Below are positions 1 to 17,798 of a stretch of DNA of 64,000 nt, piece by piece. The number at the start of each line of letters is the position of its first letter. Position 1 is the stretch's first letter. The DNA is from Ancylomarina euxina. Its GTDB lineage: Bacteria; Bacteroidota; Bacteroidia; Bacteroidales; Marinifilaceae. Location: assembly GCF_003863355.1 (NCBI RefSeq), contig NZ_QQWG01000009.1, forward strand, positions 1-64,000. Direction: 5' to 3'. Below the pieces are notes generated by a model, which was not told where the DNA came from, did no database searches, and saw only the letters and a program-made list of their open reading frames with translations. The position numbers and the translations under genes were made by a program.

Positions 1-11
1 CGTAAAATAAG

Positions 12-70
12 AACTTTTATTCCTTCAGAACAAGGGGAGATGATACTCTCTCCATTGTTCTGTAAAAGTT
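12..70. repeat. Nested inverted repeat (large hairpin)
   Basis: Three nested arms pair. AACTTTTA (12-19) pairs with TAAAAGTT (63-70), CAGAACAA (26-33) with TTGTTCTG (55-62), and GGAGA (36-40) with TCTCC (49-53). Neither side has a long T tract, so it is not a textbook terminator. It lies just past the 3' end of the nuclease-like ORF and may be an mRNA end structure or a remnant of a small palindromic element. Confidence 0.6.
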
Positions 71-112
71 ATCATAAACTAAACTTACATATAATCACCT
101 AAGTTGCATTGG

Positions 113-496
113 TTACTTGAATCTAGGATCTAAAATCTGTTGTAATTCATCAATAGATGCATATTTCACAGGCTTAGGAAAATCCTCACCTTTATACCAA
201 AGCTCTAGATATATGCCCTCTTTATTACCCGAGTCTTTAATGTATTCCGTTAGTTGCTTACAATTCCCTTGATCAACTTTAGCATGATGAGCGTTCTTTA
301 ACTCAACACAAACTTTAAAAGATTTACCATTCTTTGTATAATGAAAAAAGAAATCCAAACTTCCGTTAGCAGAAACTCTTTCTCTAGAAATATTGATACC
401 CTTCATTTCCGCTAAAGGGCTAATCAGGTTGTCAATAATTCGCTGAGCAGAAACCTCACTGATAGGCAGATTAGAGCCATTATCAATAGTCCACAT
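113..496 (-). CDS. Small PD-(D/E)XK nuclease-like protein
   Basis: A 127-residue protein of no recognised named family. The core resembles a PD-(D/E)XK fold: a strand with GSLDFFF (D48) is followed by a strand with VELKNA (E65, K67) and a helix with a Q-L-x-x-Y pattern, the order of a minimal restriction-endonuclease-like core. There is no signal peptide, membrane segment or extra DNA-binding domain. The ATG has GGAGG 13 bases upstream. The frame stays open for about 20 codons before the ATG but has no earlier start codon, so a truncated N-terminus cannot be excluded. It lies 120 bases after the DUF4833 gene, with a possible promoter box between them. The nuclease assignment is by pattern only. 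Confidence 0.55.
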   Translation of the reverse strand: MWTIDNGSNLPISEVSAQRIIDNLISPLAEMKGINISRERVSANGSLDFFFHYTKNGKSFKVCVELKNAHHAKVDQGNCKQLTEYIKDSGNKEGIYLELWYKGEDFPKPVKYASIDELQQILDPRFK

Positions 497-570
497 ATTT
501 TTGTGTAAGCCTCCAAGTTCTATGGATTTCTTTATCGTCTTTTCGAGAAAAGAACGTCATATATTCGACT

Positions 571-578
571 CAAAAATA
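571..578 (-). promoter_or_regulatory. Possible -7 box for the nuclease-like gene
   Basis: Read on the minus strand this is TATTTTTG, a full match to the Bacteroidota -7 consensus TAnnTTTG, about 75 bases before the ATG at 496. No good -33 TTTG was found, so the call is weak. Confidence 0.3.
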
Positions 579-616
579 ATTCAGACATATCATACCTGAA
601 GTTGCCATTTATGATA

Positions 617-1141
617 TTAATTGACTTCAATCTTTTCTTGTTTTAAATTCTCACTTTTGGGAATATGCGTGTAAACTTCAAGGTATTTTACTTTGGTCCA
701 TAGTCCGGCATCATTAGCGATTACAAATATATGGTCCAAACTTGAAGCTATTTGGCCTTCTCCCTGAAAGATTTCTGCTTTAAAAGGAGCAGTTTGTTTT
801 AATCTTAGTTTTAGTTTTTTGTAAGAGACTAACTGTATGTCATATTCTTGAGAATTGTTTTCTACTAATTTGTGTTTAACACCGAAAGCAAACCTATTCT
901 CAAGTCGAGTTAGTGGTTCAATAACACTTCCTTCTTCATATAGAACCCAATGTATTTTGATGGGCATATCCGGATTTAAGTTCCCATTAGTATCAAAATT
1001 AGCTTCATAAACTACAGTATTCGTATTATGAGTACGTTGAATATAAAACAAATGCCCTTCACTTTTTGTTGGAATAGGATAGCGTACAGGTGATCCTGAT
1101 AATGCTGAAAGAAATATAAGTGTGATATTTAAGAAGTTCAT
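617..1141 (-). CDS. DUF4833 secreted protein
   Basis: Matches the DUF4833 family, which has no assigned biochemical function: the stretches LFYIQRTHNTNTVVY, PIKIHWV and VKYLEVYTH are its typical strands. The best start is the ATG at 1141, whose bases overlap the TGA of the preceding reductase gene (ATGA), not a start 24 bases upstream. With this start the protein is 174 residues and opens with a hydrophobic stretch (NFLNITLIFLSALSG) that looks like a signal peptide, so it probably acts in the periplasm or at the outer membrane. It is the last gene of the tightly coupled spt operon, suggesting a link to sphingolipids; that link is inference. Confidence 0.75.
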   Translation of the reverse strand: MNFLNITLIFLSALSGSPVRYPIPTKSEGHLFYIQRTHNTNTVVYEANFDTNGNLNPDMPIKIHWVLYEEGSVIEPLTRLENRFAFGVKHKLVENNSQEYDIQLVSYKKLKLRLKQTAPFKAEIFQGEGQIASSLDHIFVIANDAGLWTKVKYLEVYTHIPKSENLKQEKIEVN

Positions 1142-2142
1142 AAACAGTTGTTTTGTTTGTACCAATTAATCGTTTCTTCTATACCCTTTCCCAACTTATA
1201 TTCTGGGGTATAGTTGAATGCAATTTGTGTTTCTTTTGAATTACAAGACCAGTTAAGACTAGTGAGTTCTTTAAATTTATCATGGTTTAATACCGAAGTC
1301 TTATTCATCATTTTAGCAAATGACTCAGTAAAATGTGCAATTGCTTTTACAATGATTTCTGGTAAAACAAGTGGTATAGTCCATTTATTTAATACTTTTT
1401 TAGTGATCTCAGATAACTCTTTACAGGTGTATGTTTGCCCATCTGAAACGATAAAGGATCGGTTTGCTATATCTGAGGAACAGGATTGAATGACTAATCG
1501 AGCTAAATCTTTCACATAAATGAAGGATAACAATTGTTTGGGACTACTGATGTAAGGTTCAAGATGTCGATTTATCGCTTTAAAGAGAGTTAGAAAATCT
1601 TTTTCTCTTGGTCCATATACTGCAGTTGGTCGAAAAATTAAATAGGGAACATCGTTTTGTTTGCTTAAATATTGTTCCACCTTAAATTTACTCCTCCCAT
1701 ATGCAGTGATTGGTTGAGGCGTTTGTTCCAATTCAATGGGAGCTAATGTTTTTGGGTCACCTGGTCCTAGCGCAGCCAAACTACTCATCAAAATGAACTT
1801 CTTTGGCATAAAATTGGCATCAACCAATGATTGTAATAAGTTCTGTGTGTATTGGTTGTTTACTAATTCAAAATTGTCAGAATTAATAGCTTGTGTTGCT
1901 CCAGCATTGTGAATCACATAGTCAAACTTTGAAAAGTATTGACTGAGTACATACCATTTTTGTCTTAACTTTTCTGGATTAGACAGATCGAGAATTAAGG
2001 TTTGAATACGATAATTATTTAAAGATTTCAGATTACTAGTACTTCTTACACCTGCAAATACCTCATGCCCTTGTTTAAGCGCTTCTTCTACTAAAAAACT
2101 ACCTATAAATCCATTGGCTCCAGTTATTAATATTTTACTCAT
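1138..2142 (-). CDS. Extended SDR reductase/epimerase, candidate ceramide reductase
   Basis: A 334-residue extended short-chain dehydrogenase. The nucleotide-binding motif TGANGFIG is at 7-14, the catalytic Ser region MSSLAALG at 119-126 and the Y-x3-K pair (YGRSK) at 148-152. The length fits NAD-dependent epimerase/dehydratases. The start overlaps the acyltransferase stop by 8 bases and the stop overlaps the DUF4833 start by 4, so the genes are translationally coupled. In Caulobacter the ceramide reductase CerR belongs to this superfamily and acts with Spt and a GNAT-type ceramide synthase, so reduction of a 3-keto sphingolipid intermediate is the likely role. The superfamily is broad; a sugar-nucleotide substrate is the main alternative. 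Confidence 0.7.
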   Translation of the reverse strand: MSKILITGANGFIGSFLVEEALKQGHEVFAGVRSTSNLKSLNNYRIQTLILDLSNPEKLRQKWYVLSQYFSKFDYVIHNAGATQAINSDNFELVNNQYTQNLLQSLVDANFMPKKFILMSSLAALGPGDPKTLAPIELEQTPQPITAYGRSKFKVEQYLSKQNDVPYLIFRPTAVYGPREKDFLTLFKAINRHLEPYISSPKQLLSFIYVKDLARLVIQSCSSDIANRSFIVSDGQTYTCKELSEITKKVLNKWTIPLVLPEIIVKAIAHFTESFAKMMNKTSVLNHDKFKELTSLNWSCNSKETQIAFNYTPEYKLGKGIEETINWYKQNNCL

Positions 2143-3265
2143 GATCTATATGTTTGATGTAACATCTACGTCTTTTGTGCTGTTCATGTGGTATAAAGCG
2201 CCACATGGATTGAACTTGTTTATTATCTTCTAACTCAATATTACTTTCAGCGATATGAATACCAAGTTTTGCAGCTCCGTTTATAATGTCACTCATAATA
2301 ATGGCATTGGCACCTTTGCTTTGATATTGCGAATCGACGGCAATCAGATAAAGATCTAATCGCTTATTCTTTTTAAGAGCCCTTAGCATCTCAAATGCAC
2401 CTCTAGGAAAGAGTTTTCCTTTCGCTTTTTGAAGAGCATGAGTAAATGAAGGCAAGGAAATTCCTACTCCAACGAGCTTTCCATCCGAATCTGCAACAAG
2501 ACTGATTAAATTTAAATTAACAAAACTCAAATAAGCCTTTGTGTAATAATCCATTTGATCTCTAGTTAATGGAATATAGCCGTACAAATCCTTATAGCTT
2601 TCATTGATTAATTTGAAGATATCAGGAGCCATTGCTTTAAGCTCTTTTATCGATTTAGGTTTTAAAGAAATCAGCTCGTTTCTATCCTTACATCTTTTTG
2701 CAAGTAAACTTATTTTATCGGCGACAGTTTCATCAGGATGTAATTCGTATTCGACCCAATCTGTACTTTTCTCGAAGCCTAATCTTACGAGATGTTTTTC
2801 GTAGTAGCGATAGTTATAGATTGTAGCCATTGTTCCCTTGCGATCAAACCCCTTGATCAACAAGCCTTGGCGATCCATATCTGTAAATCCCATTGGACCA
2901 TGCACATTTATAACAGAATGCTGTTTTAGCCAAGTTAAAGCAACTTCCATTAATTTTTCTGATATAGAAAAATCATCCTCAAAATCGAACCACCCGAAGC
3001 GACCAATATTCTCTCCTTCCTTTTCTTGTTCTTTAGTATTGATAATTGCGGCAATACGCCCAACAATTTTATTATCTCTGTAGGCTATCCAATAATTGCA
3101 TTTGCAAAACTGGTGTGCTGGATTTTTATCACGTTTTAAAGTCTTAAGTTCATCCAAATGAAGAGGAAAGGCGACCTGAGAATTATTTCGATAGAGTTTT
3201 GTATAAAACTTGACAAATTTCTTAAGCTCTGAGGAGGTTTTAACTTCTCTAATTTCTAATGGCAT
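2135..3265 (-). CDS. Double GNAT-fold N-acyltransferase, candidate bacterial ceramide synthase
   Basis: A 376-residue protein with two GNAT-like halves. The N-terminal half has the beta4 segment VGRIAA (68-73). The C-terminal half has VGVGISLP (265-272) and an acyl-CoA loop QYQSKGAN (313-320), close to the Q/R-x-x-G-x-G/A motif. No signal peptide or membrane helix is seen, so it should be cytoplasmic or peripheral. It overlaps spt by 10 bases and the SDR gene by 8. GNAT proteins serve as ceramide synthase (bCerS) in Caulobacter, so N-acylation of the sphingoid base from the Spt reaction is the simplest reading. The GNAT fold is seen in the sequence; the substrate is inferred from context. Confidence 0.7.
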   Translation of the reverse strand: MPLEIREVKTSSELKKFVKFYTKLYRNNSQVAFPLHLDELKTLKRDKNPAHQFCKCNYWIAYRDNKIVGRIAAIINTKEQEKEGENIGRFGWFDFEDDFSISEKLMEVALTWLKQHSVINVHGPMGFTDMDRQGLLIKGFDRKGTMATIYNYRYYEKHLVRLGFEKSTDWVEYELHPDETVADKISLLAKRCKDRNELISLKPKSIKELKAMAPDIFKLINESYKDLYGYIPLTRDQMDYYTKAYLSFVNLNLISLVADSDGKLVGVGISLPSFTHALQKAKGKLFPRGAFEMLRALKKNKRLDLYLIAVDSQYQSKGANAIIMSDIINGAAKLGIHIAESNIELEDNKQVQSMWRFIPHEQHKRRRCYIKHIDHE

Positions 3266-4464
3266 ACTGCCTCCTCTGGAATATAAGATTTAACAACTTC
3301 ACTAATAACACTAATAGCATATTCAATTTGCTCTTTACTATGTGCTGCAGTTAATGAGAAGCGCAGTAGTGCATCATGTTCTTTAACGCCTGGGGCAACA
3401 ACAGGATTTACATAAATGCCTTTATCTAAAAGTTTCTTTGCAACACGAAAAGTTAAAATACTGTCTCGAATATAAATCGGAATAATAGGTGTCTCGGCCA
3501 TACCAATATCTAAGTTATGCTCACGCATTAATCTCAAAGCGTATTGTGTATTATCCCATAACTTTAATCGATATGAGTCATCCGATTTAATTAATTTTAG
3601 TGAAGCTAAAACGCTTGCGGTTGCAGAAGGAGGAAGACTGGCACTAAACATATATGAACGTGAGGCGTGACTCAAATAATCAATAATATCCTTGTTGCCA
3701 GCTACAAATCCTCCGACTGAAGCCATCGATTTACTAAAAGTTCCTCCAATGAGATCCACTTGATCAGTAATACCGTAATGCGATGCGGTACCAGCACCAT
3801 TTTTACCCAAAACACCAATGGCATGTGCACAGTCTACAAAAGTAAAAGCATCGTGTTTTTGAGCCACTTGTACAATTTTATCTAGCTTAGCAATATCACC
3901 ATCCATGGAGAAAATTCCATCCGTAATAATCAATTTCACACCGCTTGAATTTCTAACTCTATTGAGCTTTCTATCCAAATCAAAAATGTCGTTATGCTTG
4001 TATTTAATGCGTTGAGCTAAACTCATACGACAACCATCGATAATGGAAGCATGATTAAGTTCATCGATGAAAACATGATCACCTTTACTTGCCATAGCTG
4101 GTAATACGCCTGTATTAACCTGAAATCCGGTTGGGAATATAATAACAGCTTCCTTTCCTAGGAAATCCTTTAATTCATTTTCCAATTCGTGATGTAAATC
4201 AAGGGTCCCATTCATAAAACGGCTACCTGTACACGAAGTTCCATACTTTTGAATGGCTTGCTTTGCTGCTTCTTTAATTAGAGGATGATTATTTAATCCT
4301 AAGTAATTGTTTGATCCAAACATTAAAACCTCTTTCCCTTCGATAACCGCAGTATCTGATTGTGGAGAAGAAATAGGTCGAAAAAATGGATACATATTGG
4401 TTTCACGTAAAAGTTTAGCTTGTATTACTAGGTTGCTATTTTTTACAAAATCGTATTTACTCAT
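3256..4464 (-). CDS. spt: Serine palmitoyltransferase (alpha-oxoamine synthase family)
   Basis: A 402-residue PLP enzyme of the alpha-oxoamine synthase family. It condenses serine with an acyl-CoA or acyl-ACP to 3-ketosphinganine, the first step of sphingolipid synthesis. Visible residues are the cofactor-stacking His in DELNHAS (H138), the D-x-x-H pair DCAHAIG (D211, H214) and the PLP lysine in GTFSKS (K245). Length matches bacterial SPT. Close relatives are KBL (2-amino-3-ketobutyrate CoA ligase) and BioF; the absence of tdh or bio genes and the overlap with an acyltransferase and a reductase favour SPT. It probably heads the four-gene unit, 93 bases downstream of the LtaS-like gene with no terminator between, so read-through is possible. 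Confidence 0.85.
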   Translation of the reverse strand: MSKYDFVKNSNLVIQAKLLRETNMYPFFRPISSPQSDTAVIEGKEVLMFGSNNYLGLNNHPLIKEAAKQAIQKYGTSCTGSRFMNGTLDLHHELENELKDFLGKEAVIIFPTGFQVNTGVLPAMASKGDHVFIDELNHASIIDGCRMSLAQRIKYKHNDIFDLDRKLNRVRNSSGVKLIITDGIFSMDGDIAKLDKIVQVAQKHDAFTFVDCAHAIGVLGKNGAGTASHYGITDQVDLIGGTFSKSMASVGGFVAGNKDIIDYLSHASRSYMFSASLPPSATASVLASLKLIKSDDSYRLKLWDNTQYALRLMREHNLDIGMAETPIIPIYIRDSILTFRVAKKLLDKGIYVNPVVAPGVKEHDALLRFSLTAAHSKEQIEYAISVISEVVKSYIPEEAVCH

Positions 4465-4557
4465 GTCAATTGTTTTTTTAGTTAAAAAAAGATTTTCAAA
4501 ATCATCTCATTTCTTGATCTGTTTCCAACTATTTGTTGAGATAAAAAGGTGCTTGGT

Positions 4558-6459
4558 TTAGATATATTTTGCTGTGTAGTTTTTAATCCAATTTCTTAAA
4601 ATTAGAAGCATTATATTGATCTGTTCTGTTTCTTTCTGAATCAGATTATTCTTCTGAAAAGGATCATTTTTAATTTGATACAGTGCCTTACATTCTTTAC
4701 CATCAAAAAGAAGTAAGTAATCGTCTTGAATCATTTGGTAGCATTGATTGATTATACTGATCGCAAATTTTTCAGAATTCGGGTCTAATAGATCATGACC
4801 TGCAGATCTAAAATCTTGGTCATAATTCAGATAATTAAGAACAGTAGGGAAAATGTCAATTTGTTGTGCACATTCTTCTCTCTTGCCTTTCAGGTCTTTA
4901 CCTGGCGCATAAAACATGAGTGGAATGGCAAAAGCGTTGGCAGATGTTGCATACTCTTTGTGCCATGGTGTAATGGCATGATCAGCCGTTATAACAAATA
5001 ATGTGTTTTTATACCAAGGCATTTCCGCAGCTGTTTTAAAGAACAGTCGAAGCGCATGATCTGTATAATTCATGGTTTCATGAATTCCATCTGTTCCTTT
5101 AGGGAATATGCCTTTATATTTAGCTGGAACAACATATGGATTATGAGAAGACAAAGTGAAAACTGTAGCTAAAAAAGGCTTCTTACATTGGTTTAACTCC
5201 TTGGCCATATAATTTAAATAGGGCTCATCGAATATTCCCCAGGTTCCATCAAAATCATTGGTATAAGGGTATTCATTTAGACCATAATACGTGTCAATAT
5301 CTGCAGCTTTGCAATAATCAGCAAATCCCATTGTTGCGTTGTGGGAACCATGGAAGAACATGGTCTCATATCCTTTTTGCTTAAGGCAGAAAGCTAAACC
5401 TGGAACTTTTTCAGCTGGTTTGTTTGATAAAATAAATGGGGTTTGAGATGCTGGTATCGAAGAAATGATTGCTGGTAATGCATCCATGCTTTTACGTCCA
5501 TTAGCATAAGCATTGGTAAAATATAAACTTTCATGCATTAGGGAATCTAAGAATGGAGCATAGCCGGGGTAATTCCCATTTTCTAAGTTTGGATTAAGGC
5601 TTTTAAAAGTCTCTTTTGTAAAACTCTCAAGTATAATAATCACGACATTATCAGGACGGAAGGCTTTTTTATTTAGGAGCTTAGATTCAGCCTTCAGTTT
5701 TGATGAAACTGGCATTTCCTGAGAATATGCCTTAATTGGCGCTTTCTCAAAATATGAAGCCAAAAGAGTAAAAGCAGAATTAAGAACGATTCCTGCATCT
5801 TCAACTTGCTCAACATCTTGTATCGCATCTTTTATTTCTAAGGAATCACCAAAAATGTTTAAATTGTTTTTAATTCCCGCAATGCACAGAAACAAGACAG
5901 ATAAACATACTGCTAAAGCTGTTTTGTAATTGAATTCTCGTTGAGTTTTAACTCGTTTTGTTAAGGTAAAGAGGAAGAATCTGATAAGAATAAACACCAA
6001 TAGGCCTAATAGAACAAAAGCATACCAATAGGTGAAAAAGAATTCACCTCCCAAGGAAGACATATTAGCTTGAGTTCCTAAATAATCGAATATTGAAAAT
6101 GTAAGTCGTTTAAGCGTATAAGGGTAATAAAATATATCAGCTAGATTGGCTACCAAGGCTATTGTACTTGTCAATGCGTAAATAGCCATTAATACATATT
6201 GATACCATTTATTCTCACACCACCTAAAGGGTAGTAAGCATAAAAGAATAAAGGGGGTATTAATCATACAGACCGCTGCCAAATCGAATTTAATGCCATC
6301 GATAATATAAAAAGGGTATTGATACCAGTCCGTGTTACTGAATAAGGCTTGGTTGAAACCAATAAAAAGTAATCTGCTCAATTGAAAAAGGAACATCAGT
6401 AATAGTAACTGATAAGATAAAACTTTGAGTTTAGACTTTGTGTTTATTCTAAGTTGCAT
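4558..6459 (-). CDS. LtaS-like membrane sulfatase-fold transferase (phosphoglycerol/phosphoethanolamine type)
   Basis: A 633-residue protein with about five membrane helices in residues 15-200 and a periplasmic alkaline-phosphatase/sulfatase domain from about 268. The metal site is visible as NVVIIILESF (E278), the nucleophile position as GRKSMDA (S324, aligning with the LtaS threonine) and a D-H pair as ITADHA. LtaS, OpgB and EptA relatives move phosphoglycerol or phosphoethanolamine from phospholipids to an acceptor at the outer face of the inner membrane. This phylum lacks lipoteichoic acid, so the acceptor is something else. Lying 93 bases before spt, a ceramide headgroup is an attractive but unproven acceptor. 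The serine instead of threonine at the nucleophile is seen in relatives. Confidence 0.75.
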   Translation of the reverse strand: MQLRINTKSKLKVLSYQLLLLMFLFQLSRLLFIGFNQALFSNTDWYQYPFYIIDGIKFDLAAVCMINTPFILLCLLPFRWCENKWYQYVLMAIYALTSTIALVANLADIFYYPYTLKRLTFSIFDYLGTQANMSSLGGEFFFTYWYAFVLLGLLVFILIRFFLFTLTKRVKTQREFNYKTALAVCLSVLFLCIAGIKNNLNIFGDSLEIKDAIQDVEQVEDAGIVLNSAFTLLASYFEKAPIKAYSQEMPVSSKLKAESKLLNKKAFRPDNVVIIILESFTKETFKSLNPNLENGNYPGYAPFLDSLMHESLYFTNAYANGRKSMDALPAIISSIPASQTPFILSNKPAEKVPGLAFCLKQKGYETMFFHGSHNATMGFADYCKAADIDTYYGLNEYPYTNDFDGTWGIFDEPYLNYMAKELNQCKKPFLATVFTLSSHNPYVVPAKYKGIFPKGTDGIHETMNYTDHALRLFFKTAAEMPWYKNTLFVITADHAITPWHKEYATSANAFAIPLMFYAPGKDLKGKREECAQQIDIFPTVLNYLNYDQDFRSAGHDLLDPNSEKFAISIINQCYQMIQDDYLLLFDGKECKALYQIKNDPFQKNNLIQKETEQINIMLLILRNWIKNYTAKYI

Positions 6460-6504
6460 TTAAATATAAATAAGGGAATTGTAAATCTTGTTATTGAGTC
6501 AGTT

Positions 6505-9066
6505 CTAAAAACTTACTTCTATTCTGAAACGAAAACCGTGTTTAGATGAGAATTTATTAAAAGCATCTCCCCTATTAATTCGATTGACATATTCCACTCT
6601 TAAGCATTTAAAAATGTTGGTGATCCCGAAACCCATTTCCATATAAGGTGCCTTGTTAGGTGCCTGAAGCATATTGGGCATATTTAAAACCTTATCGTGT
6701 TCTCCCAATAGTTTGCCATAGTAGGCTTTGAATGTGACTATTTCGCGTAGATTGAGTTTTTTGACCAGAGGCAGCTTGTTGAAAATGATACCACCACAGT
6801 TTAAACTCAAGTGTGCACTCATGTACAAATCACTTGCAAATGAAGTATGATGTAATAAATTGAAATGATAACGTGCAGCACCAATATCGCGTGTTCCTCG
6901 GGGTAATTGAAGTAAAGGATAAGGCACATTGCCAAGGATAGCTCCACCTTCAACCATCGTCTTTAGAAACATAGGTCCCATATTCACTCTATTTTTCATT
7001 GAGACATTTAGGTTGGCGTAATAACCTGATTTATTACCACTAGCTATTGGTAATTTATACTGCCCTAGAAGAGTTGTGAAATGGAATACTGGTTTTTGGT
7101 TTCCGTAGTATATACGAGAAAAATACCCCTCATCGTAATCTTGACCAAAGGATAACCTTAAATCGAGCATTAGATTTTGTGTGTCGAAGTAGGGTAAATC
7201 ATCACCCCTTTTATTAAATATTAAATTGTAATTTGAATAATAACGGTTTAATGAAGGTCTAATCAACAGCCCAAAACTTTTATTTAACTGATGTTCATAG
7301 GTGATATCGAAATGACGATTTCGCATCATATAAGGATTTGGAATTTTTGATGTGAAAGAAGATACGATGTTCCCGCCTCCTTGTTGATAGGGATTCTCAC
7401 GGATGAATTCAATAAATTTATTTTTCGTCAGGTCGAAATAATCATAGTGGTAATTGGTAGATAAAATACTTCTTTGAGTATTAGGTAATAGATATTTCAT
7501 ATTCCCACCATAAGCGAACTCTTTGTTTTTATTTCCATAACCAACATATGCACCCAGCATAAAATTCTTAAAGAGTTTCTCACTGGTTCTTAGAGGTATC
7601 GTAAAACGATTTCCTTCAATCTCATTTTTACGATAAAATGAAAAGTAAGGACCAAGATCAAGTTTCCCCATATTGTAATAACCATTAATGGTCATCGCAC
7701 TAAATTTGTCAGCAACTCTTATAAATTTATTTTCTTTTAATTTTTTGATGCCTGTATATGCAGATCGTTCAAAGGAATCTAGTGGAGCGAATTCTTTTCT
7801 TATAGCTAGAATTTCTTCACTACTCTCAATTGAATTTTGAATTAAATATTCTGATTTAGAATTTGTATTTAGTAATTGTATTGTGTTGGTATTTGCATTT
7901 CTGTAGCAAATTAATTTCTGGACATCAAAATTCTTTTTCTTTCGCTTTTTGCCCTCTTTTTTATTGAGAGTCAATTTTAAATTTATTTTCTGTGTTTTAT
8001 AGAACCACTGATCTTTATTCAGTTTTTCATAGTTGACAAAAACTTCTAAATCCTTCACGAAATTTAGATTTGCCGAATTGGGTAAGGACGCTTTTATTTC
8101 GGTTAAAGCCCAGCTTTCAGACTCTACCCAAAAATGCCCTTTGAAAGTGATATTCTTATAACTTTTTGGGAAATAATTAAACTTGTAGTGTTTGATATTA
8201 TTATAAATAGTACTATCACTTAAGTATATATTGTAGTAAAGAAGGCCAGTATTCGATATTGGACTTGGAAATCCTCTAGCTAGAATATTAATTTGATTAT
8301 TATAAAAATTGAATTCGGTTGTAATTTTCTTTTCTAAGATAGATTTTACTTGTGTATTAATCTGAGAAAGAATACCATCTGTTTTTTGAGCTATTACCTG
8401 ACTTTGTTTCCTTTTATCAGCCCTTTGATGCGAACTCACTGTTTCATCCATAAAAAAGGGCATCATAAGAGTTGATTCTGAAGTCTTTACAAATGCATCA
8501 GCAGACTCTTTGAATGTTCCAGATTGTGCTGTTTTAATTCCTAAATTGGAAAGGAATACGGTTGTTCTTGTATAATCTGTATACGACAAATTGGATAAGT
8601 GATCAGGATTATTTCTTTTTCTATTTTTAACAACTTTCCTAAGTAAAGATCTTTCGTAAGCGTTATCTGGTTTTACTATAATCTCATTCAATGAATAGAC
8701 ATCTTCTTCAAGAAGAATATCTAATATCTGTTCTTGGTTTTTGACAGTGATTTCGTTGGTTTTATACCCAATGAATTTGATGACAAGTGTACAAGGGAAT
8801 TTTTCTACATCTAAAATAAATGAGCCTTCTATATCCGACATCATACCATTTGTTGTGTTTTTAATAACAACATTCGCAAATGGAATACTCTCTTTAGTTT
8901 TAGAATCTCTTATTGAACCACTTATTGTAGATGCTATTGATGAATGTGAAATCAACACGAAAACACATATCAATAGTTTATAAAAAAAATATTTTAAACG
9001 TGAAGACTCTGCATTATATATTAATTTACAAGAACTGCTATTGGTCGTGTTTGTGCTTTTACTCAT
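6505..9066 (-). CDS. DUF5686 / carboxypeptidase-regulatory-like outer-membrane protein
   Basis: An 853-residue protein. A hydrophobic segment at about 27-45, after a polar N-terminus, acts as a long signal peptide; the real start may be internal. Next comes a CarboxypepD_reg-like beta-sandwich (ISGSIRDSKTKESIPFANVVIKN, 48 to about 130). The rest is a DUF5686 domain, with a soluble part and then beta-strands rich in aromatics that end in a terminal Phe, as expected of an outer-membrane barrel. DUF5686 is a Bacteroidota family of unknown role. The gene ends 45 bases before the LtaS-like gene, on the same strand, so they may be cotranscribed. The upstream side diverges from the sigma-factor locus. 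Confidence 0.8.
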   Translation of the reverse strand: MSKSTNTTNSSSCKLIYNAESSRLKYFFYKLLICVFVLISHSSIASTISGSIRDSKTKESIPFANVVIKNTTNGMMSDIEGSFILDVEKFPCTLVIKFIGYKTNEITVKNQEQILDILLEEDVYSLNEIIVKPDNAYERSLLRKVVKNRKRNNPDHLSNLSYTDYTRTTVFLSNLGIKTAQSGTFKESADAFVKTSESTLMMPFFMDETVSSHQRADKRKQSQVIAQKTDGILSQINTQVKSILEKKITTEFNFYNNQINILARGFPSPISNTGLLYYNIYLSDSTIYNNIKHYKFNYFPKSYKNITFKGHFWVESESWALTEIKASLPNSANLNFVKDLEVFVNYEKLNKDQWFYKTQKINLKLTLNKKEGKKRKKKNFDVQKLICYRNANTNTIQLLNTNSKSEYLIQNSIESSEEILAIRKEFAPLDSFERSAYTGIKKLKENKFIRVADKFSAMTINGYYNMGKLDLGPYFSFYRKNEIEGNRFTIPLRTSEKLFKNFMLGAYVGYGNKNKEFAYGGNMKYLLPNTQRSILSTNYHYDYFDLTKNKFIEFIRENPYQQGGGNIVSSFTSKIPNPYMMRNRHFDITYEHQLNKSFGLLIRPSLNRYYSNYNLIFNKRGDDLPYFDTQNLMLDLRLSFGQDYDEGYFSRIYYGNQKPVFHFTTLLGQYKLPIASGNKSGYYANLNVSMKNRVNMGPMFLKTMVEGGAILGNVPYPLLQLPRGTRDIGAARYHFNLLHHTSFASDLYMSAHLSLNCGGIIFNKLPLVKKLNLREIVTFKAYYGKLLGEHDKVLNMPNMLQAPNKAPYMEMGFGITNIFKCLRVEYVNRINRGDAFNKFSSKHGFRFRIEVSF

Positions 9067-9332
9067 ATTGTATATTGAGAAATTGATATTATAAAATCTT
9101 TAACTTTAATGAGACATTTCGATTGGGAAAAACACGTACTCCCATTTAAGAAAAAAACAATTATTATTACCCTTATTATATTCGTTGTAATTACTTATTG
9201 AAATATTTTCACTTTGAGTAAGTGTATTTGCATTCTCACTTGTCATACTAGAATTAGCGCTTATCGTGAATAAAAGAGATAAGCGGTTAGCTATAAATAT
9301 TAAAGCATTTATCTGTAAACAGAGAAACATAT

Positions 9333-9908
9333 ATGACTCATCAGCAAGCAAACCAAACTTTGGTTCTGGTAAACGAAACAAGTATAGAACAGTGGTATAC
9401 TACCTACTATTCCTTATTATGTGTTTATGCCAATAAATTTTTAAAAGATCTCGACCTTTCGCGCGAGTTAGTGCAAGATGTATTTGTAAATCTTTATGAT
9501 AAAAAAGAAGCGTTAAGCATACATACATCGGCTAAGTCACATTTATACCAATCGGTAAAAAATGCCTGCCTCAGCAGCATCAAACAAAAACAGACATATG
9601 CCTTGCATCACGAGAACATTAAGTATTTAAATGGGGACTACAGTTACGAAACAGATGAACTGTATGGGCAAAGTGAACTCGAATATGAATTGTATAAGGC
9701 CATTGAGGAATTGCCAAAAAAATGTCGCGATATTTTTAAGATGAATCGCATAGAGGGGTTGAACAATCAGGAAATAGCCGATTATTTAAATATCTCGAAG
9801 CGCACAGTAGAGACACAAATTAGCAAAGCCCTAAAAGCCCTTCGCAATCAACTAGCTCCTAGCCTACTTAAAACTATCCTCTTGTTTCTATTATCGAGCA
9901 TAGAATAA
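9333..9908 (+). CDS. ECF sigma factor, sigma-70 family (Bacteroidota expansion type)
   Basis: A 191-residue extracytoplasmic-function sigma factor. Region 2 covers about residues 18-88 (SRELVQDVFVNLY matches the core-binding helix). Region 4 covers about 128-180, with the helix-turn-helix NNQEIADYLNISKRTVETQISKALKALR. The C-terminal tail is hydrophobic, common in this family. The FecR-type anti-sigma gene starts 74 bases downstream on the same strand and a STN-containing TonB receptor follows at 12305, so this is the transcriptional output of a FecI/FecR/FecA-like surface signalling system. Its promoters cannot be predicted from this window alone. Confidence 0.9.
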   Translation: MTHQQANQTLVLVNETSIEQWYTTYYSLLCVYANKFLKDLDLSRELVQDVFVNLYDKKEALSIHTSAKSHLYQSVKNACLSSIKQKQTYALHHENIKYLNGDYSYETDELYGQSELEYELYKAIEELPKKCRDIFKMNRIEGLNNQEIADYLNISKRTVETQISKALKALRNQLAPSLLKTILLFLLSSIE

Positions 9909-9982
9909 AAAAATGAAGTTTTTTTTAATTAGAGGTACGTGTTATCAACCCTTAACTTGTCTTAGTAACAGAAAAGCATAAA

Positions 9983-10945
9983 ATGGAAGATCGAAATCAA
10001 CATATCAACGAGGTAGTTTTGCAAAATGTATTGCAAGGAAGCGCCAGTGCAGCCCAAGAAAAGGAGCTGAACGAATGGTTGCAAGCTTCGGATGCCAATA
10101 AAGCTCTTTTCGAAAAAATGAAGCAGATTTGGTCCGCCAGTAAGCAGCTAAAGGAATTTTCTGAAATTGACGAAAAAGCCGATTGGAAAAAAATTAAAGC
10201 CAAACGTCGAGCAAAAAAGAACAGATTAGGACCCTGGCTAAAATATGCTGCTGCCATAATGATCACAATGGGTTTCAGCCTTATTTATCTTCACGAAAAC
10301 ACTGTAGGTTTTGGCAAAATTGCTCAGATTAAAACAGAGCAAGAGAAGAGCGAACTACTACTTGCCGATGGAACAAAGGTGTATTTAAACAAAAACAGCA
10401 GGTTGGTTTATCCTAAAAAATTTGATGATGATAAACGATTGGTGAAACTACAAGGCGAGGCTTTCTTTGATGTGAAACCCAATGCCAATAAACCCTTTAT
10501 TGTTGAATCGGGTGAAGCAATTATAAAAGTTTTAGGCACCAGTTTTAATGTTTATAATAAGGTTGACAATAGTACAGAACTAAGTGTAAAAACGGGTAAG
10601 GTGAGTCTAAAATCGAGGAAAGATAAAGACCAAGAATTAGTATTGGTAAAAGGTGATGTCGGTTTACTTAGAAATCATAAAGTGATTAAACTGAAATCGA
10701 AATTTAAGAATCAAGATTCGTGGAGAACTAGGGCGCTTAAATTCCATCAGGCACCCCTAACACTGGTTTTAAAAGATTTGGAAAAGCACTACCAAGTAAA
10801 ATTTGAAAATAGAAACCAGAAAATAAAGGATTTAGAAATCACTCTTGCTTTCGATAATGAAGAAATTGAAAAGGTTATTCATCAGCTTGAGTTATTACTG
10901 CAAGTAAAAATTATAAAACACAAAAATATCTATATCATAAAATAA
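9983..10945 (+). CDS. FecR-family anti-sigma factor
   Basis: A 320-residue single-pass inner-membrane protein. The cytoplasmic N-terminus (1-80) contains the WLQASDANKALFEKM-type segment that binds the sigma factor. One helix lies at about 86-103 (LKYAAAIMITMGFSLIYL). A periplasmic FecR domain covers about 120-215 (LLLADGTKVYLNKNSRLVYP, LQGEAFFDV, VLGTSFNV), and a C-terminal DUF4974 domain (about 248-319) meets the STN domain of the receptor. It follows the sigma gene by 74 bases and precedes a small secreted protein by 8. It is expected to hold the sigma factor inactive until the receptor signals. Confidence 0.9.
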   Translation: MEDRNQHINEVVLQNVLQGSASAAQEKELNEWLQASDANKALFEKMKQIWSASKQLKEFSEIDEKADWKKIKAKRRAKKNRLGPWLKYAAAIMITMGFSLIYLHENTVGFGKIAQIKTEQEKSELLLADGTKVYLNKNSRLVYPKKFDDDKRLVKLQGEAFFDVKPNANKPFIVESGEAIIKVLGTSFNVYNKVDNSTELSVKTGKVSLKSRKDKDQELVLVKGDVGLLRNHKVIKLKSKFKNQDSWRTRALKFHQAPLTLVLKDLEKHYQVKFENRNQKIKDLEITLAFDNEEIEKVIHQLELLLQVKIIKHKNIYIIK

Positions 10946-10953
10946 AAATCGAA

Positions 10954-11409
10954 ATGAAAAAAGTATTAGTATTAGCAATTATTGCCTTAGCATTTGTATT
11001 CGAGTCGAACGCACAATCAATAAAATACAAAGTAATTACTTCAATTGAGTCTATCGTACCAATGGGATTGGGTCGTTCTAGAATTATCGAAGAAAAGAAT
11101 CCAATGGATGCACAGAAATTTACAACAGAACGTACCAATGGGAAAAAAAGTAAGCAAAAAGATGTAAAACGTAAGGATGCCAAAGTAGACCGATTTGCTG
11201 AAACTAAGCTTTTAAATTTCTACTCAATTGCAGGTATCAATTTCCAGAATATCGCTTCGAATGATGCTCTATTATCATCGAAAATGAACACACTTGTTAG
11301 CGAAGGATGGGAATTAGCTTTTGTGAACTCTGCTGTTGAATCGGATAGTGGTAAAGGCGATGGTAAAGGTATTTTTATTACTCGTTACATCTTTAAAAAA
11401 CAGATATAA
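10954..11409 (+). CDS. Small secreted protein of unknown function, DUF4177-like tail
   Basis: A 151-residue protein with a clear signal peptide (KKVLVLAIIALAFVFESNAQ, cut after about residue 21). The middle is very basic and low in complexity (NGKKSKQKDVKRKDAK). The C-terminal part reads FYSIAGINFQNIAS ... LNTLVSEGWELAFVNS-like, resembling DUF4177 proteins, in which a short alpha/beta unit ends in GWELV. No enzyme motif is visible. It starts only 8 bases after the FecR stop, so it belongs to the signalling operon; a periplasmic accessory role is possible but not shown. Confidence 0.65.
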   Translation: MKKVLVLAIIALAFVFESNAQSIKYKVITSIESIVPMGLGRSRIIEEKNPMDAQKFTTERTNGKKSKQKDVKRKDAKVDRFAETKLLNFYSIAGINFQNIASNDALLSSKMNTLVSEGWELAFVNSAVESDSGKGDGKGIFITRYIFKKQI

Positions 11410-11562
11410 GAGACTGAAGATAAGATAGGTCTCCATCATCTTAAATAAATAACTATGATATTAAAATCCATATTTACTGAATTGAGAATAGATTGGAGTT
11501 TACGAAAATCTATCTTAAAACCATATTATACAGCACTACACCATATACATAACAAATATGTG

Positions 11563-12135
11563 ATGCTTAATTGGACTAAGCAGAAAGGAAATAGGCGCAC
11601 TTCGGATAGAATAATCAATGTATTCATAAGTATGATACTCCTTATGGGAATCAGTTCTTGTTCTGAATCACCTCTATCGGATGTTGAAATTTACAACCCA
11701 TCAAGTCTGTACGTTTCTGCTCATATTTATCAAGATTTCGATAACAATAAAGAATTGATTATTAAGGTGAATGATAAAAATGGCAATTATGTAGACTTGC
11801 TAAACGGTGGCGTATCGGTAAATGGAAGAGACTGTGATTTGAAGCATGCTAGTTTTGGTGGACTTGGCAAAACTTATGTGTATTATCCTAATTATTACGT
11901 TGATGAATTTAAAGTTGAAATTTGGTACAACTCTCACGACTCCTATACATTTTATATTGAGGCACCTTATTTTCCAGGTTTTATGACCAATAAGAGAATG
12001 ACTCATGTCGATTTACGGCATTCAGGAAACAAATTCACAGGGCAAAACACCTATACAGGTACGCCATTTCATAATAGAGAAATTGATTTTAATTTCGATA
12101 TCATGAAAGAAGAATCACAAATGAGAATGAAATAA
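11563..12135 (+). CDS. Putative lipoprotein of unknown function
   Basis: An open frame runs from 11455, but the ATG at 11563 is the better start: from there the protein has a basic N-terminus, a hydrophobic stretch (INVFISMILLMG) and a lipobox-like GISSC, giving a 190-residue lipoprotein precursor. The mature part is beta-rich, with many Tyr and Asn (VYYPNYYVDEFKVEIWYN), as in secreted immunoglobulin-like domains. No family was recognised. It lies between the small secreted protein and the TonB receptor and is followed by a hairpin at 12178, so it probably ends the sigma-FecR transcript. Confidence 0.6.
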   Translation: MLNWTKQKGNRRTSDRIINVFISMILLMGISSCSESPLSDVEIYNPSSLYVSAHIYQDFDNNKELIIKVNDKNGNYVDLLNGGVSVNGRDCDLKHASFGGLGKTYVYYPNYYVDEFKVEIWYNSHDSYTFYIEAPYFPGFMTNKRMTHVDLRHSGNKFTGQNTYTGTPFHNREIDFNFDIMKEESQMRMK

Positions 12136-12177
12136 GTTTTTAATAGATGATGCATTCATAGTCATTTTGAATTATGA

Positions 12178-12211
12178 GCCCCACCGAAATATCGGTGGGG
12201 CATTTGTATTT
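12178..12211 (+). terminator. Hairpin terminator after the lipoprotein gene
   Basis: GCCCCACCGA (12178-12187) pairs perfectly with TCGGTGGGGC (12192-12201) around a 4-base loop and is followed by a T-rich stretch (ATTTGTATTT). It separates the sigma-FecR genes from the receptor gene, which then needs its own promoter or read-through. Confidence 0.7.
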
Positions 12212-12304
12212 ATAAGTGAGCAAAGAAGAATCATTTGAAGAATATTGTTTAAACTGAAAATTCTATACAAATTTGCGGCCGTTTCGATTTACACACAATT
12301 ACCT

Positions 12305-14899
12305 ATGCGATTTACACTTACTCTAATTTTCATATCCTTACTAAGCATTTCATCATTTGCTCAAAAAGTAAGTTTAAAACAGAAAATCAATCTACATAAG
12401 CAGACTTACAAGATTGAGCAAATTTTCCAAGAAATACAGAGCCAGACAGGCATAGAGTTAAGCTACACCAGCCAAATCAATACCGATGAAAAAATCAGAA
12501 TCGAATCGACAATTGCCAGTCTCGATCATTACCTACAACAATGTATCAACACCCAAAAATTCCGTTGGGTATTAGATGACAATAAGATTTTTATTATCCC
12601 CATCCCTTCAAAGGAGCAAACAGTTAGAATCAGCGGTTTTATTTATGATGCCGATACAGGCGAAAGTCTGATTAATGCCAGTATCTACAATCCCAATAGT
12701 CATATAGGTACTGTAAGCAACAATTTTGGTTTCTTTAGTTTTAAGCAACAGAAACAAAATGCCCAGGTCAGAATATCATACGTGGGATACGAGGATACAA
12801 ATATCGATCTGTCGCAAAGCGCCGACACCGTTGTCAATATCAAATTAAAAGCCCATAAGATATTAAATGAGGTAAAAGTGCTTGCTGATGAAAATGCCAA
12901 TAATATTAACCACCTATTTTTAAGCACCTATAATATTACTGCTCAGGATTTAAATAAAAAATCGGTGCTGGGTGAAGATGATTTTTATAGAAACCTGCTC
13001 TATTTACCAGGTGTGCAATCGGCAAATGAGGCTTCTAGCGGTTTAATTGTTCGTAGTGGTTCTCCCGATCAGAACTTGGTCCTGTTAGACGATGTACCTG
13101 TCTATTATCAATCTCATCTTTTGGGACTATTTTCGATATTTAATCCCGATGCCATTCATCAAGCCCGATTGATAAAAGGCGGGTTCCCAGCACAATATGG
13201 AGGACGTATTTCATCCGTTTTGGATATTAGAATGAAAGATGGCAATCATAAAAAAATTGAGGGCGATTTCTCCATAGGTCTACTCACCACAAAACTAAAT
13301 ATTCGAGGACCTATTATTAAAGAAAAAACCTCTTTTAACCTGTCTTTACGTCGCTCCTACTTAGATCTTATTTCGTCAGCACTACTTAATTTGGCCGATT
13401 CGGATGTTAAATTTTCCTACTACTTTGGAGATTTAAATTTTAAACTCTCACATAAATTCTCGAACAGAGACAAGCTGTATTTAAGCACCTACTGGGGAGG
13501 CGATTTAGCCAAATTACAGGCTACAGACATTTCTTTTTTCGATGATGAAGCACAAAAAAGTATCAATAAAGTGGCATGGGGTAATTTCACCAACTCACTA
13601 CGTTGGAATCATGTTTATAACGATAAACTATTTGGAAATACTTCTCTCATACTAAGTCGCTACACGTTTTTGGTAAAGGATATTCGTGAAACTAAAGACG
13701 AAAATAATGTTTATAAAGAAAGCTTTTATCATGAATTTTACTCAGGCATACGCGATTATTCATTTAAATCGGAGTTCGATTATATCCCCCAGTCCAAATA
13801 CTATAACAAGTTTGGTATCGAAGCTAATTTTCATCGAACGAAACCCGGAAGTAGTTTCTACGACAATGCACAAGTCGATATAGAGGACTCTATGAAGGAT
13901 AGAAACATTGATGCTTTAGAATTCGCTCTGTATTTTCAAAACCAAACCCAATGGAATAAGAAGCTACTTACAAGTCTTGGCCTCAGGTTTACCTCCTTTA
14001 TGCTGAAAAGTAAAAGTTACATTTCTTTAGAACCACGATTAACGGCACAATACCGTATAAACCCTAAACTGAGCTTAAACACGGGCTATTCTATGATGTC
14101 GCAGTATATGCATTTAATTACATCGAGTACATTAAATCTTCCTACTGATGTGTGGCTCCCTGTAGGTGAAAATATCAAACCCATTAGGTCTCACCAGCTT
14201 AATATGGGTAGCATTTGGCAAATCAGCAATCAATGGTTACTGAATTCTGAACTGTTCTACAAGCACACAAAAAACACTTTAGAGTTTAGTAAAAACGCTT
14301 ACCTCTACGAAGGGAAACACAAATGGTCGAGTATGGTTGAAGCCGGAAAAGGCTGGAGCACCGGCTTTGAGTTATTAATCAAGAAACACAAAGGAAATAC
14401 GCAAGGGCATTTGGCTTATACACTTGCAAAATCGGAGGTTAAGTATAAATACTTGAATAAGGGGATGGCTTACCCCTCTCCTTACGATCGCCGTCACGAT
14501 CTCTCCATACAAGTAAGCCAAAAACTAAGTTCGAAAATCGATATCAATATCAATTGGATTTTTGGTAGTGGTTTACCACTCACCATCCCCAATATGTCGG
14601 TGAATACCCTTTCGCCCTATCAGCAGGCAGAAATTACCGAAACGCCTGTTTTCTCTCAACGTAATTCGGTTCGCATGCCAAATTCCCAAAGAATGGATAT
14701 TTCTATCAATTTTAAGAAGAAGAAAAAGCGAGGGACACGTGTTTGGAATCTGAGTTTTTACAACATTTACAATCGAAAAAATGCCAGCTACGTTTACTTA
14801 CAACAAAAGTATAACGATCAAGGCAAATCAGAATACAATATTAAGCAATTGAGCTTTTTTGGTTTTATACCTAGTGTTTCTTATTCCTATCAATTTTAG
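12305..14899 (+). CDS. TonB-dependent receptor with STN signalling domain
   Basis: The ATG at 12305 gives a normal signal peptide (RFTLTLIFISLLSISSFAQ); the frame is open from 12245 but that extension is unlikely. The product is about 864 residues. In order: an STN domain (about 25-105, YKIEQIFQEIQSQTGIELSY), a carboxypeptidase-regulatory-like domain (about 108-190), a plug domain (DFYRNLLYLPGVQSANEASSG, LVLLDDVPVY, GGFPAQYGGRISS) and a 22-strand-type barrel ending in YQF. STN domains contact FecR-type anti-sigmas, so this is the sensor for the sigma/FecR pair at 9333-10945 as well as a transporter. The DUF4249 lipoprotein 8 bases downstream is its likely surface partner. The ligand is not evident. 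Confidence 0.9.
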   Translation: MRFTLTLIFISLLSISSFAQKVSLKQKINLHKQTYKIEQIFQEIQSQTGIELSYTSQINTDEKIRIESTIASLDHYLQQCINTQKFRWVLDDNKIFIIPIPSKEQTVRISGFIYDADTGESLINASIYNPNSHIGTVSNNFGFFSFKQQKQNAQVRISYVGYEDTNIDLSQSADTVVNIKLKAHKILNEVKVLADENANNINHLFLSTYNITAQDLNKKSVLGEDDFYRNLLYLPGVQSANEASSGLIVRSGSPDQNLVLLDDVPVYYQSHLLGLFSIFNPDAIHQARLIKGGFPAQYGGRISSVLDIRMKDGNHKKIEGDFSIGLLTTKLNIRGPIIKEKTSFNLSLRRSYLDLISSALLNLADSDVKFSYYFGDLNFKLSHKFSNRDKLYLSTYWGGDLAKLQATDISFFDDEAQKSINKVAWGNFTNSLRWNHVYNDKLFGNTSLILSRYTFLVKDIRETKDENNVYKESFYHEFYSGIRDYSFKSEFDYIPQSKYYNKFGIEANFHRTKPGSSFYDNAQVDIEDSMKDRNIDALEFALYFQNQTQWNKKLLTSLGLRFTSFMLKSKSYISLEPRLTAQYRINPKLSLNTGYSMMSQYMHLITSSTLNLPTDVWLPVGENIKPIRSHQLNMGSIWQISNQWLLNSELFYKHTKNTLEFSKNAYLYEGKHKWSSMVEAGKGWSTGFELLIKKHKGNTQGHLAYTLAKSEVKYKYLNKGMAYPSPYDRRHDLSIQVSQKLSSKIDININWIFGSGLPLTIPNMSVNTLSPYQQAEITETPVFSQRNSVRMPNSQRMDISINFKKKKKRGTRVWNLSFYNIYNRKNASYVYLQQKYNDQGKSEYNIKQLSFFGFIPSVSYSYQF

Positions 14900-14907
14900 T
14901 TTGTGTT

Positions 14908-15810
<903 letters not shown>

Positions 15811-15923
15811 ACCCAATTTATTTATCAAAACAGAAATTGAGCGAGATACTATAGATCAGAAGCACGCTTAGAAATTTCACTAAGACAATCAACAACTTAG
15901 GTTTTAAAAGCCTGTTTATGACG

Positions 15924-16340: not shown

Positions 16341-16777
16341 GCTTAAGTGCTTGGTTTATTGTCTTAAATTATTAAAAGTATACGACATAGTGGCCAAAAC
16401 TTTACATTATTTATAAATTAGACCTCATTCCATCTTGGAAGAATAGTTTTGATTCAATTATCACACGCTAATTCTGATTCTAAAAAAAGCATTAAGCAAA
16501 AAAAAGCGACAAACATATTTATCGCGAAATAAGAAACACTTTATTCAATAACAACTCAACGAACTTTCCCTACATGAGTATATTAGCAGCGTGTAAAAAT
16601 CAAGTAAAGTTCATTTTTTGATTTCTACCCTATTCTAAATAAGTTCAATTTACAGATCCCAGTATACATCTTATTGATAAATAACGTTTTTTAAGACACT
16701 GAAAGTCTGAACTTAAATAGATATTTTATAGATTTGCTCATTCAAAATTATTTAGAATTAGAACAAAAAAACATAAA
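16341..16777. other. Intergenic region between the HAD gene and trxB
   Basis: AT-rich and without a convincing ORF or RNA gene. The only clear signal is the candidate trxB promoter at 16706-16736. Confidence 0.6.
16706..16736 (+). promoter_or_regulatory. Candidate trxB promoter
   Basis: TCTG (16706-16709; one mismatch to the -33 TTTG) is followed after 19 bases by TAGATTTG (16729-16736), a full match to the -7 TAnnTTTG. The trxB start is 41 bases downstream. Confidence 0.5.
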
Positions 16778-17773: not shown

Positions 17774-17798
17774 TACAAATCAAATCGAATAACTCAAA

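Follow-up and report, generated by a model that had tools for sequence, protein, structure and literature searches.

In Caulobacter crescentus the ceramide genes spt, cerS and cerR are CC_1162, CC_1154 and CC_1164; this bacterium makes phosphosphingolipid head groups, and nearby lies what is probably a dedicated transport set (LptC2/F2/G2, a potential flippase among them) (PMC11324152). Its reductase CerR resembles NDUFA9 and is located in the periplasm (PMC11087976). In Bacteroides thetaiotaomicron, sphingolipids make up much of the lipid of outer-membrane vesicles (PMC8791184), and BT1522-BT1526 form an inositol-phosphoceramide operon (PMC9246714); a putative alternative inositol cluster with NTP transferase, CDP-alcohol phosphotransferase and HAD families occurs in B. 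vulgatus and Prevotella (PMC9246714). In this study we analyzed a 64,000-nucleotide stretch of Ancylomarina euxina, a member of the Bacteroidota (assembly GCF_003863355.1, contig NZ_QQWG01000009.1, positions 1 to 64,000 of the forward strand; hereafter the window), which holds a gene unit with the families of ceramide synthesis and a DUF4833 protein. To our knowledge, no route for sphingolipids to the outer membrane has been described in Bacteroidota, and a literature search judged by titles and abstract starts found no paper on one.

Six genes form one conserved unit

An earlier reading of the window, made from its letters alone (the original prediction), had described four overlapping genes at 617-4464 as a compact ceramide operon. 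This range is too short: the unit consists of six genes and spans 617-9066.

6505..9066, minus strand: outer-membrane protein (OMP), first of the six genes, with CarbopepD_reg_2, DUF5686 and a predicted C-terminal Omp85-like barrel (about 16 strands, residues about 478-850)
4558..6459, minus strand: LtaS-like sulfatase-fold membrane phosphotransferase, five predicted hydrophobic helices followed by the catalytic domain; candidate head-group enzyme
3256..4464, minus strand: spt, serine palmitoyltransferase, Lys245 binding pyridoxal phosphate (PLP), Ala275
2135..3265, minus strand: GNAT-type N-acyltransferase, probable (dihydro)ceramide synthase
1138..2142, minus strand: extended SDR (TGxxGxxG, YxxxK), probable CerR-like 3-keto reductase of ceramide or long-chain base
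617..1141, minus strand: DUF4833 protein, hydrophobic N-terminal signal-like segment (residues 3-17) and all-beta domain; probable periplasmic lipid-pathway factor

We give about an even chance to the reading that these six genes build dihydroceramide and bring it, in phosphorylated form, to the outer membrane, with DUF4833 and the barrel acting after synthesis. Judging from families and gene context, Spt would condense serine with an acyl thioester, the GNAT protein would N-acylate the base, and the SDR would reduce the 3-keto group. The LtaS-like enzyme, to judge by its family, would probably add phosphoglycerol or a similar head group at the periplasmic face. DUF4833 would be exported to the periplasm, where it and the Omp85-like barrel may present, hand over or insert the sphingolipid at the outer membrane; in inositol-phosphoceramide clusters, the DUF4833 and OMP families occur again, beside other head-group enzymes.

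The coordinates bear out the overlaps described in the original prediction. The four genes at 617-4464, all on the minus strand, overlap their neighbours by 10, 8 and 4 bases when DUF4833 is taken from the ATG at 1141. The open reading frames (ORFs) at 3256-4464, 2135-3265 and 1138-2142 encode 402, 376 and 334 aa, and the DUF4833 ORF (617-1165) encodes 182 aa from a TTG or 174 aa from the ATG at 1141. Gaps of 93 bases between the LtaS-like gene and spt, and of 45 bases between the OMP gene and the LtaS-like gene, join the other two genes on the same strand. The Pfam matches are Aminotran_1_2 (194.9 bits), Acetyltransf_1 (29.8 bits, cut-off 20.7), Epimerase (99.3 bits) and DUF4833 (PF16117; 98.6 bits, cut-off 23.1), each above its cut-off.

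The order OMP, LtaS-like, spt, GNAT, SDR, DUF4833 is kept in all four loci with the unit: the window, L051 (genome G198) and L052 (G201) from the same genus, and L050 (G229) from a different genus of the same family. The gene coordinates give identical 10, 8 and 4 overlaps in L051 and L052, and dN/dS against these two loci is 0.026-0.124 for all six genes, indicating purifying selection, although synonymous sites are near saturation in some pairs. Since the overlaps recur and purifying selection acts on each of the six genes, the overlaps are not due to chance. None of the 63 flanking genes of the four loci (39 in the window, 14 in L051, 9 in L050, 1 in L052) matches between loci at E<=1e-5; the unit therefore moves or persists as a block. 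In these comparisons the six genes behave as a portable block; this suggests horizontal transfer, without proving it. Two further genomes of the genus, G199 and G200, gave no DUF4833 match; their best GNAT matches (E 1e-18 to 1e-20) and Spt matches (E about 1e-86) are not close ones. GC content is 0.30-0.38 across positions 1-20000, with no abrupt step at the unit. Promoter-like sites show no excess (37 versus a shuffle mean of 41.3), and no promoter is claimed.

Comparisons used a phylum sample of 198 Bacteroidota genomes, with cut-offs of E<=1e-40 for GNAT, E<=1e-105 for Spt (which may overlook distant Spts) and E<=1e-100 for cysteate acyltransferase (CFAT), and a sample of 58 relatives, in which the Spt and GNAT cut-offs were placed at visible E-value gaps after the results had been inspected. 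DUF4833 is present in 12 of the 198 and 10 of the 58 genomes, with the window's own genome counted in both. Its surroundings were examined in 22 sampled loci from 21 genomes of both samples, taking about 10 kb of flanking sequence or less where the contig ended. They were also examined in 80 named loci, the best 80 of 315 relatives ranked by likeness to the Runella-type L018 protein and hence biased to one subfamily. Panel genes in the named loci were counted if they reached E<=1e-6, each ORF receiving a single label; many of these loci end at contig ends or have a 10-kb flank ending inside the GNAT gene, so Spt is undercounted.

Spt, GNAT and SDR have the families of sphingoid base chemistry

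Sequence comparison supports well the assignment of the window gene as serine palmitoyltransferase. Its closest solved chains are the Spt structures 3a2b/8guh (425 bits), which we take to be the enzyme of Sphingobacterium multivorum, ahead of the best AONS/KBL-type chain (305.6 bits) and CFAT (236 bits). In alignment with PDB 3a2b/8guh, the PLP-binding Lys245 (TFSK) and the active-site His138 (HASIIDG) are intact. One position, Ala in Spt and Lys in cysteate acyltransferases, has been reported to separate the two enzymes (PMC9304779); the window protein has Ala275 at PLP-Lys+30, and the CFAT of the same genome, encoded outside the window, has Lys279. A CFAT identity for the window gene was rejected on the bit scores and this alanine. 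The motif VDCAH occurs in the Spt of all four unit loci and reads VDDAH in L044 and L021. KBL- and BioF-like paralogs are separate genes elsewhere in the genome. The CFAT gene lies on the same contig (C77:123987-125117; L003, L195), and its product scores 597 and 543 bits against PDB 7u7h and 28eh. In view of this gene, the host probably makes sulfonolipids besides sphingolipids.

The Acetyltransf_1 match of the GNAT protein contains no single stretch that reaches E 0.001 alone. The protein carries QSKGANA, a candidate acyl-thioester loop; the same pattern does not occur in L044 or L021. The original prediction had held that finding DUF4833 and the GNAT gene mostly without spt would count against it. 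At the cut-offs used, the phylum sample has GNAT in 115 genomes, Spt in 22, CFAT in 74, and GNAT together with Spt in 15, so most GNAT carriers indeed lack spt, as do 8 of the 12 DUF4833 genomes; the pattern named as refuting is thus literally observed. This is partly because DUF4833 also occurs in inositol-phosphoceramide and other lipid clusters and GNAT lies beside CFAT in 12 genomes. Regardless of distance, Spt and GNAT show no significant co-occurrence (15/22 vs 100/176, p=0.22). By adjacency counts read by eye, GNAT lies <=0.2 kb from spt in 13 of the 15 genomes with both (G000, G002, G003, G008, G030, G033, G050, G058, G091, G099, G108, G155 and G190) and <=1 kb from CFAT in 12 of the 74 CFAT genomes (G025, G057, G068, G103, G118, G130, G134, G142, G154, G170, G174 and G182). 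The simplest reading is that this GNAT family comprises N-acyltransferases for serine- and cysteate-derived bases alike, and the CFAT-adjacent member is a candidate sulfonolipid N-acyltransferase. Two distant GNAT paralogs (26-27%) are found in the same genome, at L196 9379-10572 and L197 8787-9968; L197 also holds an OMP of the window family (14548-17058) between TatC-like and LptB-like genes, both names judged by eye.

The SDR retains the motifs of the extended type (TGANGFIG at 7, YGRSK at 148). It could instead act on nucleotide sugars, with the GNAT protein acting on another amine, and the unit would then make a glycolipid and not ceramide. The top Pfam family of the SDR is Epimerase, RmlD_sub_bind and GDP_Man_Dehyd also pass their own cut-offs, and the nearest solved chains are mostly sugar epimerases, with a weak match to the NDUFA9 chain of mitochondrial complex I (E 2.1e-4). 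However, 3Beta_HSD passes its cut-off as well, and in the best 25 of 60 models no curated NCBIfam cut-off is reached, nucleotide-sugar equivalogs included (best sugar model 75.1 vs 367.65). Homologous SDRs accompany Spt and GNAT in L021 and L044 and are present in 34 of the 37 Spt-bearing named loci, and the dehydrogenase CC_1164 has the keto-reductase role in Caulobacter (PMC11324152). We regard the glycolipid explanation as very improbable, and from its context the SDR is the probable keto reductase of ceramide or a long-chain base. Families, motifs and gene context thus agree with the sphingoid chemistry that the original prediction had assigned to the three genes.

DUF4833 accompanies lipid head-group and sphingolipid genes

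Co-occurrence of DUF4833 with the synthesis genes was counted in both samples. In the relatives sample, a strong GNAT match is found in 10/10 DUF4833 genomes vs 17/48 others (p=0.00016; 9/9 without the own genome), and Spt in 7/10 vs 7/48 (p=0.00093; 6/9 without the own genome). In the phylum sample, the corresponding counts are 4/12 vs 18/186 for Spt (p=0.031), 10/12 vs 105/186 for GNAT (p=0.059) and 10/12 vs 64/186 for CFAT (p=0.0011). All of these p-values ignore the kinship of the genomes, and the CFAT association is confounded by class, because 10 of the 11 other DUF4833 genomes belong to the window's own class, in which CFAT is very common.

Of the 22 sampled loci, 8 have spt clustered with DUF4833 (within about 14 kb), namely the window, L050, L051, L052, L044, L018 (with L112), L021 and L045 (with L111). 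The strict coupling of DUF4833 to spt in the original prediction is therefore not supported. Some of the other loci still hold lipid genes. In L020, L022 and L025, the flanks contain genes for a short-chain dehydrogenase, PhyH, a CDP-alcohol phosphotransferase and GtrA, but no Spt. In L046 an OMP gene overlaps DUF4833, and LysE and an OlsF-like acyltransferase (395 bits against a cut-off of 620) come next. L047 and L049 adjoin YceI, L026 a fatty acid hydroxylase, and L023 and L024 glycosyltransferases; housekeeping genes flank some loci, and L029 is a fragment. The subfamily of L047 and L049 has a different setting, beside YceI, tRNA_anti-like genes and a conserved thioredoxin-domain gene (Pfam read for L047). 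In G138, DUF4833 appears split into two ORFs (L025 9402-9975, plus strand), possibly a frameshift or pseudogene.

In the 80 named loci, the panel counts are OMP 70 (69 at >=300 bits), CDP-alcohol phosphotransferase 68, PAP2 52, GtrA 48, SDR 46, PgpA 44, GNAT 43, fatty acid hydroxylase 41, Spt 37 and MIPS 32; the OMP match in L192 is weak (43.9 bits) and the Spt match in L184 doubtful (231.7 bits). At least one panel lipid-synthesis gene flanks DUF4833 in 70/80 loci, and 49/80 have Spt, GNAT or SDR. An order seen often is Spt-GNAT-SDR-MIPS-PgpA-GtrA-OMP-phosphotransferase-DUF4833-hydroxylase-PAP2, which corresponds to the families of the B. thetaiotaomicron inositol-phosphoceramide operon plus ceramide genes (PMC9246714, PMC8791184). 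The L021 phosphotransferase scores above the cut-off of the BT1523 model (398 vs 350), whereas its PAP2 protein matches the phosphoinositol dihydroceramide synthase model below cut-off (325.7 vs 480). A Bacteroidota-type inositol-lipid cluster ordered as in L145 was also found in L144, on a contig binned as Azovibrio restrictus, probably by mis-binning.

In 28 of the 80 named loci, a phosphatidylinositol (PI)-phosphate-synthase-like CDP-alcohol phosphotransferase carries DUF4833 as its C-terminal half; the single fusion that was scanned exceeds the cut-off of the BT1523 model for PI-phosphate synthase (406.8 vs 350). A hydrophobic stretch occurs in the linker of all 28 fusions (17-residue mean 1.76-2.66), and a hydrophobic N-terminal segment in 51 of the 52 unfused proteins. 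The linker stretch would be a retained signal-like helix forming an extra membrane pass, which suggests a periplasmic location of DUF4833; this assignment of membrane side uses hydropathy alone. The clusters and fusions support the original proposal of a secreted lipid-pathway factor beyond what could be known from the window.

The fusions also fit a different role, in which DUF4833 would be an accessory domain of head-group synthesis, that is, a periplasmic regulator or stabiliser of the phosphotransferase (PI-phosphate synthase or, in the window, the LtaS-like enzyme), and not a transport factor. Clusters of the Flavobacterium type, with phosphotransferase, GtrA and DUF4833 but no spt in the flanks (L020, L022, L025, L187 and L191), agree with such a role. 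However, the window unit and the L044 cluster contain no CDP-alcohol phosphotransferase. Moreover, the active site of CDP-alcohol phosphotransferases is cytoplasmic, and the extra hydrophobic stretch would put DUF4833 across the membrane from it. An accessory domain is a possible explanation, clearly short of an even chance.

A head-group enzyme candidate and an Omp85-like barrel

The LtaS-like protein belongs to the sulfatase family (Pfam) and has five hydrophobic helices and motifs that we take to form a metal site. Its best solved match is the uncharacterised VP1736, followed by lipoteichoic acid synthases. The LtaS-type phosphoglycerol transferase model of NCBIfam is not reached (82.5 bits vs cut-off 970), hence the designation LtaS-like; a head-group role is probable from its family.

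The structural model of the OMP is of moderate confidence (pLDDT 69.9, pTM 0.52). Within it, residues about 467-852 are predicted to form an Omp85-like barrel of about 16 strands (Foldseek prob 1.00, E 1.2e-7; VIA Z 19.3 over 308 residues, rmsd 4.9). Among the 50 VIA matches listed, the titles name BAM, SAM, TOC or TamA, with one titled only 'membrane complex'. Arg723 is nearly invariant (alignment A3) and lies in a long loop between strands 11 and 12 (699-711 and 747-756), which we presume to correspond to loop 6 of BamA. No POTRA domain was found in the Pfam scan, in which only CarbopepD_reg families and DUF5686 matched. DUF4833 and DUF5686 are named in no paper found in the literature search.

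More tentatively, DUF4833 and the POTRA-less Omp85-like DUF5686 barrel could constitute a dedicated sphingolipid export route of Bacteroidota. Such a route would be combined with various head-group enzymes (for inositol, and in the window perhaps for glycerol phosphate), and in one relative it would stand beside an OlsF-like aminolipid synthase. We place its probability low, and slightly lower on account of TamL, an Omp85 protein of F. johnsoniae that is reported most likely not to take part in outer-membrane lipid transport (PMC12045153).

Evidence against a dedicated sphingolipid role

Besides TamL, several results weigh against the reading of a sphingolipid synthesis and delivery unit. For the synthesis step, the best NCBIfam model of the window Spt is NF047600, the Bacteroidota Spt equivalog, whose cut-off is not reached (544.7 vs 640 bits). 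The LtaS-like gene is found in 0/80 named loci. The window OMP shares no more than 24-25% identity with its counterparts in the inositol clusters L018 and L021, and a copy closer to the L018-type OMP (33%) lies elsewhere in the genome (C14:465538-468054); in view of that copy, we rejected the idea that the window and the inositol clusters hold the same OMP gene. For DUF4833, 18 of the 22 Spt genomes in the phylum sample lack it, and it is therefore dispensable for ceramide as such. Panel spt, GNAT, SDR, phosphotransferase and OMP are all missing from 10/22 sampled loci, where YceI, present in two, is the sole lipid gene of the panel, and one further sampled locus has just the OMP. Ten of the 80 named loci, all from Pedobacter, have no panel synthesis gene. 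Finally, the DUF4833 model is good (pLDDT 88.2, pTM 0.82) and has no match among solved chains at E<=0.001 (best Foldseek E 0.11) and none by VIA with Z>=5 (best Z 3.6 over 40 residues); the structure therefore gives no sign of lipid binding.

Other searches with DUF4833 were likewise negative: none of the viral models matched at E<=0.001, a profile search of PDB sequences gave 0 hits at E<=1, and viral contigs held no relative in a search sensitive to close relatives only. The absence of structural matches is no proof of a new fold. A role as a defence gene was rejected, with no PADLOC match at E<=0.1.

The sampled loci without panel genes, together with the 8 of 12 phylum DUF4833 genomes that have no Spt at E<=1e-105, could mean that DUF4833 is a general secreted envelope protein swept into lipid operons, its coupling not being specific to sphingolipids. 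Against this stand the fusions and the DUF4833 tree, whose 51 rows comprise all 20 of alignment A1 plus 31 from the named loci. In the tree, the rows linked to Spt are spread over several lineages (the window clade, L044, L045 and the large inositol clade), although the sequences are short, support is weak at some deep forks, and there are long branches that meet. The tree groups the window clade with L046 (99/92), separate from the inositol clade. We consider a general envelope protein unlikely. We regard DUF4833 as a genuine candidate for acting late in phosphosphingolipid biogenesis, though it is neither a strict partner of spt nor universal in ceramide makers.

Surroundings of the unit

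An extracytoplasmic function (ECF) sigma factor gene and a FecR-type anti-sigma gene lie at 9333-10945 on the plus strand, divergent from the OMP gene. Such a pair also adjoins DUF4833 in L027 and sits just upstream of the OMP gene in L046, and it is a possible regulator. After DUF4833, a 127-aa ORF (113-496, minus strand) weakly matches EruA, a NACHT antiphage protein, at its C-terminal end (27.1 bits, cut-off 1000); PADLOC yields only a weak Cas10 match for it (E 0.015).

Comparison with known systems

The original prediction had stated that the three synthesis families are those used by Caulobacter. Condensation, N-acylation and keto-reduction are indeed common to both, matched by function from the literature and not by sequence comparison. 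Unlike in Caulobacter, the trio here is one overlapping unit, and the unit contains no lpt copies but DUF4833 and an Omp85-like barrel. In contrast to the periplasmic CerR of Caulobacter (PMC11087976), the window SDR has no N-terminal signal by hydropathy, only one internal hydrophobic stretch (255-271, mean 1.52).

With BT1522-BT1526 of B. thetaiotaomicron, the likeness lies in the named loci, where DUF4833 relatives cluster with MIPS, PgpA, GtrA, PI-phosphate synthase and AUR1-like PAP2, and both cluster types have a BT_1527 homologue, a carboxypeptidase-regulatory-like protein, in their vicinity (PMC9246714). Unlike that operon, the window unit has 0/5 inositol genes, and DUF4833 is not named for the operon in the available part of PMC9246714. 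MIPS, PI-phosphate synthase and inositol-phosphoceramide synthase were sought among the six genes and the neighbours at 113-496, 9333-9908, 9983-10945 and 12245-14899, and none was found; the rest of the genome was not searched for them. All three families of the alternative inositol cluster, matched by family name and not by sequence, are held in one cluster in L018, L045 and the Runella-type named loci. Unlike the published cluster, these loci add DUF4833, plus spt, GNAT and SDR where the flanks reach.

The modelled barrel resembles Omp85 proteins (BamA, TamA, Sam50) in its predicted strand number, long loop and conserved arginine, but its N-terminus carries CarbopepD_reg_2 in place of POTRA domains. 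In conclusion, the ceramide trio belongs to a known kind of operon, varied here in a new way by its close linkage to DUF4833, an LtaS-like enzyme and an Omp85-like barrel. The unit provides a first functional context for DUF4833. As synthesis genes, a secreted protein of no known function and a barrel stand in one compact unit, a small set of deletions could test such a route directly.

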